NCBI GenBank assembly: GCA_016649905.1
Contig: JAENWU010000002.1
Location: 1 to 50,900, forward strand
Direction: 5' to 3'
DNA from: Thermoleophilia bacterium
Lineage (GTDB): Bacteria > Actinomycetota > Thermoleophilia > Solirubrobacterales > 70-9
Length of the DNA: 50,900 nucleotides
In this document: positions 5,472-43,611 of the stretch, piece after piece
Layout: each line of letters begins with the position of its first letter
Position numbering within the stretch: the first letter of the stretch is position 1
Program-made: the position numbers and the translations under genes
The notes under the pieces: generated by a model
Database searches by the model: none
The model's input: only the letters and a program-made list of their open reading frames with translations
Told to the model about the DNA's origin: nothing

Positions 5472-5514
5472 CGGGACTGAAGCCAGTGTATCCACGCCCC
5501 GCCGGCGCCCCCGG

Positions 5515-5566
5515 AGGGGTGTCTGAGCTAAGGGACCCATATAGGGACCTAAGCTCAGACACCCCT
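5515..5566. repeat. Hairpin A1: 15-bp perfect outer stem aggggtgtctgagct/agctcagacacccct, imperfect inner stem, CATATA centre
   Basis: aggggtgtctgagctaagggacccatatagggacctaagctcagacacccct, between the divergent dnaX and membrane protein genes. Confidence 0.9.
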
Positions 5567-5596
5567 CGATGTGGGCCGCACCGATACCGTGCGCGC

Positions 5597-7102
5597 GTGC
5601 CATCGAGGGTCTCCAGCTGGCTGACGCCGGCCGCCTGGGTCGCCGGGGTGACGGCTGTCCTGCTGCTCGTCTTCCCGGTCGGCTTCCCCAACTACGACAC
5701 CATCTACGCGCTGGTCTGGGGGCGCGAACTGGCGCACGGGATCAGCCCCGACGTCGGCTCGGCGCTGCCGCCGACCCCGCACCCGCTGACCGAGCTGATC
5801 GGGCTGGTGACGACGCCGCTGGGCGACGGCGCGATCACGGTGACGATGGTGATCGCCTACGTCTCGCTGGGCCTGATCGGCTTCTTCGTCTACCGGCTCG
5901 GGGCGATCTGGTTCGACCGCTGGGTCGGCGCCGTCGCCGCCGCGATCGTGCTCACCCGCGCCCCCTTCCTCTCCAACGGCCTGCGCGCCTACATCGACCT
6001 CCCCTACATCGCCTTCTGCCTGGCGGCGCTGCTGGTCGAGGCCAAGCGCCCGCGCGCCGGCTGGCCGGTGCTGGCCCTGCTCATCCCCGCCGGCCTGCTG
6101 CGCCCCGAGGCCTGGCTCTTCGCCGGCGTCTACTGGCTCTGGTTGGCGCTGGACCTGCGGCCGATGGGCCGATTTCGGGACCATGAGGCCCGAAATCGGC
6201 CCATCGGCGGGGTGTTTGGGTGGGAGCTGCGCTGGCGCGGCGAGCGCTCGACCGTGGAGCTGGCGTGGCTCGCCGCGCTCGCCGTCTCCGGGTCGGTGCT
6301 TTGGGTCGCGTTCGACGCGATCACCGCCGGCGACCCGCTCTACTCCTGGACCGGGACCAAAGAAACCGTGGAGACGCTGGAACGGCAAACCGGTCCCGTC
6401 GACCTCGTCCTCTACGGCCCGCGCCGGCTCGGCGAGGTCCTGCAGTGGCCGGGGATGGTCGGCGCCGGCGGCGGGGTCGTGCTCGGGCTCGCCTTCCTGC
6501 GCCGCCGCTCGGCGCTTGGCGCCGCCGCCGCCGGCCTGGCCCTGCTCGCCTTCGCCCTGCTCGCCTGCGGCGGCCTCGCGATCCTCCCCCGCTACACGAT
6601 GCTGGCCGCGGCGATCCTGGCGATCTTCGCCGCGCTCGCCCTGCTCGGCTGGCGGCTACTGGAGCCCGATCACCGCTGGCGCCGCCGCTGGCAGGTCTTC
6701 GCCGGCCTGGTGGCGCTGATGTTCGCGGTCTGGATCCCGAACCAGTGGGACCTCGACTCCCGCGTCGACACCGACCTCACCAACCAGGCCCAGATCGAGG
6801 GTGACCTCTCCGACCTCGTCGACGACGGCGCCTTCGAGCCGCTCTGCGGCAAGGTCGCGGTGCCAAACCACCGCGCCGTCCCCCGCCTCGCCTTCGGGCT
6901 CGACGTCAGGCCGACCGAGATCGTCAGCGCCATTGAGGAAAGGATTCCCAAGCGCGGCTACTTCGTCGCCCCGGCCAGCAAGTTCGTGATCCACAACTTC
7001 ATCCTCGACCCCAACGACCCGACCGACTTCTCACCCGAGGTCCCGCCCGGCTTCAAGCTCGTCGCCGAGAACGAGTCCTGGCAGGTCTACCGCCGCTGCT
7101 GA
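5597..7102 (+). CDS. Polytopic membrane glycosyltransferase-like protein
   Basis: Many TM helices (VAGVTAVLLLVFPVGFPNYDTIYALVWGRELAHG...); GT39/ArnT-like layout. GTG start chosen over the upstream in-frame ATG at 5486. Confidence 0.65.
   Translation: MPSRVSSWLTPAAWVAGVTAVLLLVFPVGFPNYDTIYALVWGRELAHGISPDVGSALPPTPHPLTELIGLVTTPLGDGAITVTMVIAYVSLGLIGFFVYRLGAIWFDRWVGAVAAAIVLTRAPFLSNGLRAYIDLPYIAFCLAALLVEAKRPRAGWPVLALLIPAGLLRPEAWLFAGVYWLWLALDLRPMGRFRDHEARNRPIGGVFGWELRWRGERSTVELAWLAALAVSGSVLWVAFDAITAGDPLYSWTGTKETVETLERQTGPVDLVLYGPRRLGEVLQWPGMVGAGGGVVLGLAFLRRRSALGAAAAGLALLAFALLACGGLAILPRYTMLAAAILAIFAALALLGWRLLEPDHRWRRRWQVFAGLVALMFAVWIPNQWDLDSRVDTDLTNQAQIEGDLSDLVDDGAFEPLCGKVAVPNHRAVPRLAFGLDVRPTEIVSAIEERIPKRGYFVAPASKFVIHNFILDPNDPTDFSPEVPPGFKLVAENESWQVYRRC
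6161..6207. repeat. Hairpin A2: perfect 19-bp arms inside a CDS, 9-nt loop accatgagg
   Basis: ccgatgggccgatttcggg-accatgagg-cccgaaatcggcccatcgg. Confidence 0.95.
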
Positions 7103-11205: not shown

Positions 11206-11244
11206 GGTCGTAGTTCCCTCCGCATAGCGGAGAGAACTACGACC
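11206..11244. repeat. Hairpin A4: 18-nt arms with one mismatch, ATA loop
   Basis: ggtcgtagttccctccgc-ata-gcggagagaactacgacc between the convergent ABC permease and SRP RNA. Confidence 0.93.
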
Positions 11245-11306
11245 TCAGCAGTTGTATGGACCGTGCACCCGCCTCTGAGACGAGGTCACCGGGCGTGTCC
11301 GTCGCT

Positions 11307-11412
11307 TATGGCTCGAGCCGGGCTCACCTGCGGCACCCGCGGCATCCGCTTAAGGCTGCTTCCTTCCGGACCTGACCTGATTCGCGTGCCCACGTCGCGC
11401 AGGACCCGACCG
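11307..11412 (-). ncRNA. ffs: Signal recognition particle RNA, small bacterial type (ends approximate)
   Basis: Minus strand carries the SRP signature GGTCAGGTCCGGAAGGAAGCAGCC (reverse complement of ggctgcttccttccggacctgacc at 11354-11377) with flanking complementary GC arms. Confidence 0.88.
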
Positions 11413-11564
11413 TCAACGCCGCCGCGACGCACTGACCCCGACGGCCAGTCCCTCGGAACGGGAATTCGGCCCCGCTAGAGCGGATTGCGGGTTACAGGGC
11501 ACCGCTGATTCCCCGCCTAGCACGGTCCGTTGCCGATCCTACCGGCCCGACGTAGGATGCGCAC

Positions 11565-13997: not shown

Positions 13998-14069
13998 GGG
14001 CGCGTAGCTCAGTGGGAGAGCGCTCGCTTCACACGCGAGAGGTCGCTGGTTCGAAACCAGCCGTGCCCA
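13998..14069 (+). tRNA. tRNA-Val (anticodon CAC)
   Basis: gggcgcgtagctcagtgggagagcgctcgcttcacacgcgagaggtcgctggttcgaaaccagccgtgccca folds as a full cloverleaf; loop cttcaca. Confidence 0.95.
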
Positions 14070-14089
14070 TAGCCCGAATTGCCTGGAAA

Positions 14090-14422
14090 TCAGCGGGTTT
14101 CAGAGCCACCGAGAGAGCGCAAATCGCTCGCCTCTGCGGCCTCTGAAAAGGCACTGGTGCCTTTTGAACGTTGAGCGGCCGGATCAAGTCCGCTGTCGGC
14201 GCTCGATCCGATACCGCGCTCGTTCAGTTCGGCGACGACCTCGGCCCGCCGCCAGTGCGTCGGGCTGGTCTCGATCCCATTCTGCTCCGCGAGAGCGTCG
14301 ATGGCTGCCTCGGCAGCGTGAAGCAGAAGCGTTACCGCGACTCCGAGATGCCCCTCCTCGATCTCCTCGCGCGCGAGGTCCAGATGATCGCGGGCAAGAA
14401 CCTATTTTGCCTTCGGGGACAT
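14090..14422 (-). pseudogene. HEPN-like small helical protein with a premature amber codon
   Basis: MSPKAK*VLARDHLDLAREEIEEGHLGVAVTLLLHAAEAAIDALAEQNGIETSPTHWRRAEVVAELNERGIGSSADSGLDP...; TAG at 14402-14404. Confidence 0.6.
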
Positions 14423-14568
14423 TGCCCAGAGTGTCGCGCACAGTTCGGAGCGAAGCCTCAGAAGCCGTCCAAGACATGGATGAGCTAGGAGGACGTTCCC
14501 GGCGGGTTTCCTCGGGTGCTTATCGGTGGATCAGGGCTAATGCTCGAAAGGTCCAGGAGCAGTGCGGT

Positions 14569-15375
14569 TCATCCGCGTCCGAGCCGCTTGAGCGTGACCG
14601 TGGTGGATCCCCCCAGCCTCTCGTTCAGGCTGGTGTAGCCGGGAAAGTCACTGACAGACTCGAGGAAACGATCCCTGAGCTCTACGTTGAGGTTGCGTTT
14701 TGAGTCGAAGATCTGACTTATCGACAGTGCTCCGCGCTGGTCGGATAGGTAGGGGAAGGGGACGGTGAACTGGTCGAAGTTCCATACCTCCACCATGCCG
14801 CAGGCGAGGGCTGGGTTCTTCGTCCTGGCCGCGGTACTCGACTGCTCTAGGGTCAGCTTGCCTTTGGACCAGCCAAGCCTGAGGTCTGAGTGCACCGGGA
14901 ACCTCTGTCCGCAGGATGGGCCACTCAGTGGGAACGATGTACATATGGTGGGCGTCCGCGTCTGCACGGAGCCGGTCGCTTCTCGCGTCACGCTTCCCGA
15001 CGTCGCCAGCGCGGCGTCGCCCAACGAGCGGCCCGCCCGCTGGAGGATCACGACTCCAGGGCCCAGCTTTCGGAAGGAGATCACTATTCCCCTGCCGCGG
15101 GCGTACTCCCAGAACTCATTGAGGGTGCCGGCGCCCTCGAGGCTGCAGTCGATCGCCGGGGAGGTGTCGTAGACGAAGTTCAGGTGCGCGCTCTGGGTGC
15201 CCCGGACCGTCACCTCGAAGCGCTCGACGCCGGCTTTTGGAAGGAGATCTTCGACGTTGCCCGGCAGGCCGGGCGACGTGGGCAGGGCGGATTGTGGCAG
15301 GGCTGCGGCCGGTAGCGTGTGCAGCATCAAAACGACGGTCGCGGCTGCGATGACCTTCAATATGATCGGCACCAT
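14569..15375 (-). CDS. Secreted hypothetical protein (island cargo)
   Basis: MVPIILKVIAAATVVLMLHTLPAAALPQS... signal peptide; intact ORF. Confidence 0.55.
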   Translation of the reverse strand: MVPIILKVIAAATVVLMLHTLPAAALPQSALPTSPGLPGNVEDLLPKAGVERFEVTVRGTQSAHLNFVYDTSPAIDCSLEGAGTLNEFWEYARGRGIVISFRKLGPGVVILQRAGRSLGDAALATSGSVTREATGSVQTRTPTICTSFPLSGPSCGQRFPVHSDLRLGWSKGKLTLEQSSTAARTKNPALACGMVEVWNFDQFTVPFPYLSDQRGALSISQIFDSKRNLNVELRDRFLESVSDFPGYTSLNERLGGSTTVTLKRLGRG

Positions 15376-15491
15376 ACTGCCTTCCTCGAAGGACCCGAAC
15401 GACCAGCATAAGGGCATCGGTCCTTGCCTTCGTAAGGGCATCGGTCCTTGCCGTCGCCACTGCCGGCCTGGTCGCTACGTCCAAACGCCCG

Positions 15492-15773
15492 TTGCACTGG
15501 GTGCGGCGGCGACCATTCCCGTGGCACTGGCCCAAGCTGCGCTCCACCAATCCCCTGGAGCGGGTCAACCGCGAGGTCGGGCGCCGAAGTGACGTCATGG
15601 GGATCTTCCCCAACGACGCTTCGGCGCTCCGCCTTGCCGGCGCATTGCTGATCGAGCAAAACGATGAGTGGCTCGTTACTCGCCGCTATTTCTCGGCGGA
15701 GTCGATCGCCCTGGCCCTCGAGGGCCAGGGCGAAGCGGGACGAGAGGAGGTGCCGACACTGCAAGCCGTGTGA
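15492..15773 (+). pseudogene. IS256/Mutator-family transposase C-terminal fragment
   Basis: HWPKLRSTNPLERVNREVGRRSDVMGIFPNDASALRLAGALLIEQNDEWLVTRRYFSAES is the typical IS256 C-terminus; the catalytic N-terminal part is missing. Confidence 0.85.
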
Positions 15774-15963
15774 CCAGGCCGACGAGGAGTTACACCACCA
15801 CCGCCTACTTGACTCGTCGAGGCCGTGACGGCGGTGGGCGGAAAGTTGCCTCGTGCCGGCCGCGGCCTTGGTCTGGGTTGCCTGGGCACCAGTGCCCAAC
15901 ACGGGATTTATCGACTGCAATTTGCGGTAATTCTGGGCACTAGAAAATCGGTGGGGGAAGGTG

Positions 15964-15986
15964 CCGCATTCCGCTTGGGAATGCGG
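15964..15986 (+). terminator. Terminator-like hairpin
   Basis: ccgcattcc-gcttg-ggaatgcgg followed by gtttgcagggcttttt. Confidence 0.5.
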
Positions 15987-16015
15987 GTTTGCAGGGCTTT
16001 TTCGGGCCCTCAGGG

Positions 16016-16066
16016 GCGCTCGCTTCACACGCGAGAGGTCGCTGGTTCGAAACCAGCCGTGCCCAT
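16016..16066 (+). repeat. Distal att-like copy of tRNA-Val nt 23-72 plus one base
   Basis: gcgctcgcttcacacgcgagaggtcgctggttcgaaaccagccgtgcccat, identical to 14020-14070. Confidence 0.95.
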
Positions 16067-35274: not shown

Positions 35275-35319
35275 CGAGTCTGCTCTCAGTGGCGATATGC
35301 GCCACTGAGAGCAGACTCG
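35275..35319. repeat. Hairpin A5: perfect 20-bp arms, atatg loop
   Basis: cgagtctgctctcagtggcg-atatg-cgccactgagagcagactcg. Confidence 0.97.
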
Positions 35320-43566: not shown

Positions 43567-43611
43567 TCCGCTGTTCCTTTGGTGCGCTATGCGAACAAAA
43601 GGAACAGCGGA
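43567..43611. repeat. Hairpin A6: 21-nt arms with two mismatches, TAT loop
   Basis: tccgctgttcctttggtgcgc-tat-gcgaacaaaaggaacagcgga, immediately 3' of the tadA stop. Confidence 0.93.

Follow-up and report, generated by a model that had tools for sequence, protein, structure and literature searches.

Why a perfect palindrome should lie inside the open reading frame (ORF) of a membrane protein gene is the question raised by contig JAENWU010000002.1 of an uncultured Solirubrobacterales actinobacterium (draft genome of 2.92 Mb in 212 contigs, 91.7% complete, 68.5% GC). The analysis started from positions 1 to 50,900 of this contig, and the whole of this stretch is called the window. The preliminary description reported a perfect 19-bp palindrome inserted in frame in a membrane glycosyltransferase gene. 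The palindrome is real and perfect, but its arms are 20 bp long (Table 1). It is very probably one copy of a non-autonomous palindromic repeat specific to a single genus, here called family A, which is or was mobile and has a unit of about 49 bp, with a net insertion of about 39 bp in the cleanest case.

Table 1. Positions in the window of the family A palindrome, its host gene and the palindromes of other families
Feature	Position	Strand	Details
Left arm, family A palindrome, GCCGATGGGCCGATTTCGGG	6160-6179	+	20 bp
Centre, ACCATGAGG	6180-6188	+	9 nt
Right arm, CCCGAAATCGGCCCATCGGC	6189-6208	+	20 bp, complements the left arm at 100%
Host gene, GT-C fold membrane glycosyltransferase	5597-7102, start 5597 or 5648	+	ORF, AlphaFold2, Foldseek
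Family E palindrome	5514-5567		
Family B palindrome	11206-11244		
Family C palindrome	35275-35319		
Family D palindrome	43567-43611		

The + strand ORF of the host gene stays open through the hairpin, which encodes the peptide RPMGRFRDHEARNRPIG, residues 188-204 of the protein as numbered from the start at 5597. When the whole window was shuffled 60 times with its dinucleotides preserved, the longest perfect arm was 9-15 bp, compared with the 20 bp observed, and the RNA fold of the hairpin has an energy of -49 kcal/mol (z = -7.7). No RNA family was found at the hairpin with Rfam, and Pfam gave no significant match for the protein. The AlphaFold2 model of the protein is a confident fold, with a mean predicted local distance difference test (pLDDT) score of 87.9. 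In Foldseek it resembles the GT-C enzymes ArnT, ALG12 and PglB, which supports the label of membrane glycosyltransferase and fixes the class as GT-C. The proposed placement between transmembrane segments agrees with the model as well, in which residues 188-204 form a low-confidence loop (block 191-200, pLDDT 56) between two transmembrane helices, 171-184 and 219-244. Judged from helix counting and the GT-C topology, the loop would be cytoplasmic.

Hairpins were mapped in the draft genome from BLAST and pattern searches and from individual sequence stretches. Family A was found in 37 places by BLAST and in 38 by a core scan, with 14 exact cores and none for a reversed control pattern. The unit is 49 nt, GCCGAYGGGCCGATTTCGGG-N9-CCCGAAATCGGCCCRTCGGC, the second arm being the reverse complement of the first. 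At the exact midpoint 31 of the 38 copies have ATA/TAT and four have ATG/CAT, and the Y/R pair of the outer arm is complementary in 25. The flanks extend the unit weakly and symmetrically, AACC..CC on the left being mirrored on the right.

Of the 38 copies, 12 lie in frame within ORFs, seven make up the C-terminal (3') end of an ORF, and the remaining 19 are outside ORFs. These figures depend on rough gene calls from a simple, home-made codon-usage caller, and the copy at RsmH (L008) was counted as outside because the element precedes the likely true start. The in-ORF hosts are mostly conserved enzymes. Named from hidden Markov model matches, the hosts are bioD, purQ, dxs, folC, pheT, holB, a pabA/pabB fusion, glpK (partial), pgeF/yfiH, a helicase of the UvrD/AddA type and a membrane protein resembling GT87, together with the GT-C gene of the window. 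The names bioD, dxs, folC, pheT and pabB pass the curated cut-off, while the others fail it in NCBIfam or match only Pfam. All three reading frames are used by the in-ORF copies, with one dominant (ADGPISGDIGPKSAHRP).

Orthologous sites in ten relatives were located with a chimeric query and then compared by alignment and at the codon level. The cleanest pair of filled and empty sites is that of bioD, where the comparison with G004 gave an exact insertion of 39 nt (13 codons): the filled site is CTCTCCGCCGACGGG-CCGATTTCGGGAGATATAGGCCCGAAATCGGCCCGTCGG-CTGGCGGAC and the empty site CTCCCCGCCGACGGG-CTGGCGGAT. The insert adjoins GCCGACGGG, already present in the empty site, and the outer arm of the family, GCCGAYGGG, matches sequence that pre-exists there. 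The triplet GGC can be assigned to either flank of the insert, and this 3-nt direct repeat may be a 3-bp target duplication or microhomology. The purQ gene is also 39 nt longer than in G004, in which the empty site is ACCGATGGG, and the pheT site in G004 reads GCGGACGGG. Net differences elsewhere are +45 nt in dxs, +27 in the helicase and in pgeF, +15 to +18 in holB and +12 in folC; since those in folC, holB, pgeF and the helicase depart from 39 nt, these four are not assigned any one insertion length. For the copies in pheT and pabB, decayed counterparts exist in G001, and some insertions therefore predate the species.

At the window site, where a clean insertion of about 47 nt had been expected, the loop is hypervariable and the difference from G004 is about 57 nt; the exact insertion is the one in bioD. 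Conserved coding sequence would have the same peptide in orthologues with non-palindromic codons, as the preliminary description pointed out. The orthologues in G003, G006, G007 and G008 instead have different peptides, encoded by differently sequenced yet palindromic DNA, in which the outer seven pairs are the same (GGGCCGA..TCGGCCC) and the inner arms different. The only decayed, non-palindromic version is found in G001, and G002 and G004 are without the element. The G009 orthologue has a tRNA-Val fragment in place of the hairpin. Another hairpin lies in frame nearby in the hypervariable loop of G010 (L059) and G031 (L074), that of G031 being AAGTGCCGGCCT-CATC-AGGCCGGCACTT. The window site is a hot spot. 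The tRNA-like in-frame inserts are about 45 nt long, match the middle and the T-arm of tRNA-Val(CAC) (GAGCGCTCGCTTCACACGCGAGAGGYCGCTGGTTCGAAACCAGC) identically or nearly so, and occur in two unrelated genes of two species: the window gene orthologue of G009 (L064/L214) and an AddA/UvrD-like gene of G010 (L153/L208).

The strict core GGGCCGAWWW-N17-WWWTCGGCCC was scanned in 232 genomes of the order, the copy numbers from this exact pattern being lower bounds. Seven of the 12 genomes of one genus gave 29-93 matches and every other genome gave 0-2. According to DNA identity at three loci, the copy-rich genomes are those of clade 1 (G003 and G006-G009), G000 in the otherwise poor clade 2, and the distant G011, with about 70% identity compared with about 81-90% for the other members of the genus. 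The common inner-arm types are species-specific, with AAAAGCGCT..AGCGCTTTT in G011 and AAAACTCAAG..CTTGAGTTTT in G006. Among 43 distinct cores, 92.7% of the cells in the 14-pair stem are paired. Double changes number 69, compared with a mean of 22.4 in shuffles and 3-27 for slid partners, and the covariation is 0.289, compared with 0.084 in shuffles (none of 500 reached the observed value) and at most 0.113 for slid partners. The outermost seven pairs are set by the search pattern, and only the inner seven are therefore informative on pairing.

An intergenic site common to G006, G007, G008 and G009 has nearly identical outer arms and a different inner type in each genome. This looks like a swap of the centre, for which gene conversion between copies would be the simplest route. 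Replacement of the centre at orthologous sites was found at L228, at L239 and in the window gene. At two sites in clade 1 (L227 and L221) G007 has a family A element where its sister species either lack one or have another palindrome, of about 95-100 nt. Palindromes of the latter kind (..CCTGGCAGCGTCCTCGGTCGCTCGCGTGC..GCTCCCTGCGTCCTTGCCAGGC..) were seen at post-stop sites in this clade, at L254 in G009, L261 in G003 and L255 in G006, and at L245 and L264.

The hairpins could instead be functional transcription terminators or stabilisers of mRNA ends that are under selection, the in-gene copies being stray duplicates. Many of the copies outside ORFs lie 2-20 nt after a stop codon and several between convergent genes, the stems are very stable, and the same post-stop site (L227, L221) can hold different kinds of hairpin in different species, all of which fits such a function. 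However, the 12 copies in mid-ORF are placed where termination would harm, copy-poor sister species manage without the element, and a terminator role needs no arm or centre sequence common to the copies. A U-tract, as expected of an intrinsic terminator, is absent 3' of the window copy, the only copy scanned for it. Such a selected terminator or stabiliser role is possible but not likely. For a palindromic repeat, the intergenic copies just after stop codons would be tolerated, or their hairpins would serve to protect transcripts or to end them.

The net length of 13 codons, the open reading frames and the preference for GAY-GGG targets (an Asp-Gly turn) would allow such a repeat to insert into surface loops and leave the protein undisturbed. 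New copies would arise when an existing element is copied into a target with the same outer arm, candidate routes being homology- or microhomology-guided template switching, or a recombinase, and the centres would spread by gene conversion via the identical outer arms. That the empty bioD site already matches the outer arm favours copying guided by homology or microhomology, or else a recombinase that targets this sequence, on the basis of one exact and a few near-exact sites.

Several points weigh against a mobile repeat. Movement itself was not observed, and bioD has the only base-perfect junction. The varied net lengths (+12 to +45 nt) suggest either loops that vary on their own or a loss of host bases to replacement upon insertion. 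Copies are patchily distributed, G000 being rich and its close relatives poor, with G011 rich as well, so that horizontal spread and differential loss are inseparable. All genomes are drafts, mostly metagenome bins, 78-100% complete, with an estimated contamination of 6-7% in G011 and G003. No mobilising enzyme was found: Y1_Tnp (PF01797) was detected in none of the 12 genomes of the genus, in a search whose control detects Y1 in five known genomes, and RVT_1 was present only in G000 and G009 of the 12, not tracking copy number. Mobilisation by a reverse transcriptase is unsupported, RVT_1 being limited to these two genomes.

It is unlikely that family A is a classical repetitive extragenic palindromic (REP) element or miniature inverted-repeat transposable element (MITE), mobilised in trans by a REP-associated tyrosine transposase (RAYT) or another insertion sequence transposase. 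REP elements are short hairpins in 20-100 or more copies, often near gene ends and sometimes intragenic, with subfamilies that differ by complementary stem changes and with stems of 5-13 bp (PMC3733652). Family A resembles the GTAG- or CGTC-tagged REP elements as a short hairpin of similar size and location, and its size class, inverted repeats, copy number and GGC direct repeat at bioD fit a REP element or a MITE. It differs from REP elements in its 20-bp stems, in its occurrence in a genus without RAYT and in the missing tag; neither an unpaired GTAG nor CGTC was found in the 38 copies, whose flank composition is symmetric. The absence of Y1_Tnp makes RAYT-driven REP transposition unlikely. 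With bacterial MITEs (ERIC, Correia/NEMIS, RUP) it shares inverted repeats, dispersed non-autonomous copies and both empty and filled sites, but it is only 49 bp long and has no TA target and no proven target duplication. BLAST of its own draft genome found neither a related autonomous element with the same ends nor isolated arms, the mark of a longer autonomous relative.

Protein-coding palindromes have so far been treated as largely a peculiarity of Rickettsia and Wolbachia. Family A is a tiny, frame-neutral counterpart from high-GC actinobacteria that are known through metagenomes; its sites are empty in sister species, some of its copies are decaying, and the arm types differ from species to species. 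Within one genus it becomes testable how palindromes spread without a recognised transposase and how often inserts create new protein loops. The analogy with Rickettsia made in the preliminary description extends to behaviour but not to membership. The Rickettsia palindromic elements (RPE) and Wolbachia palindromic elements (WPE) are dispersed palindromes with several families per genome, a large share of them in frame in unrelated conserved genes (PMC10969869, PMC2229807). Family A, too, is dispersed, lies in frame inside many unrelated conserved protein genes, with several sites empty in relatives, and shares its genome with at least four other palindrome families, which makes at least five in all (A-E). 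It is set apart by size, architecture and lineage: RPE are 105-146 bp long (PMC2229807), with a long imperfect stem-loop in an AT-rich alphaproteobacterium, whereas the 49-bp unit of family A has near-perfect arms and occurs in a different phylum, in a genome of 68.5% GC. It is best classed as a new family of short palindromic repeats that are compatible with coding. Neither a report of family A nor one of palindromic repeats in Solirubrobacterales was found in the literature searched, which is not proof of absence. That the window palindrome is an ordinary conserved loop, palindromic by chance, is practically impossible: orthologues do have the loop, with recurrent GR..RPI residues, but chance arms are too short and the dispersed copies, with the same DNA in unrelated genes and intergenic sites and in three reading frames, already refute it.

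Families B-E, with one copy each in the window, are dispersed palindromes of about 40-55 bp, with roughly 5-20 copies each in the source genome. Family B is also numerous in G004, and one copy of family C lies in frame in the gene of a membrane protein (L279). The stems of the five families are unrelated, and nearly all centres examined are TAT or ATA, a shared apex that is unlikely by chance at this GC content. AT-rich tips could simply favour the formation of hairpins or cruciforms. It is doubtful that all five are copied by one shared and so far undescribed machinery, which would recognise the tip of the hairpin, insert where a target matches the outer arm and swap centres as cassettes.

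The family B palindrome is located immediately downstream of the gene for the large signal recognition particle RNA (11261-11525, - strand), in the expected position of a terminator. The stretch 13998-16065 of the window holds a tRNA-Val(CAC) gene and, at about 16017-16065, a second copy of its 3' half, and the 2 kb between the gene and this copy looks like a small integrated island.
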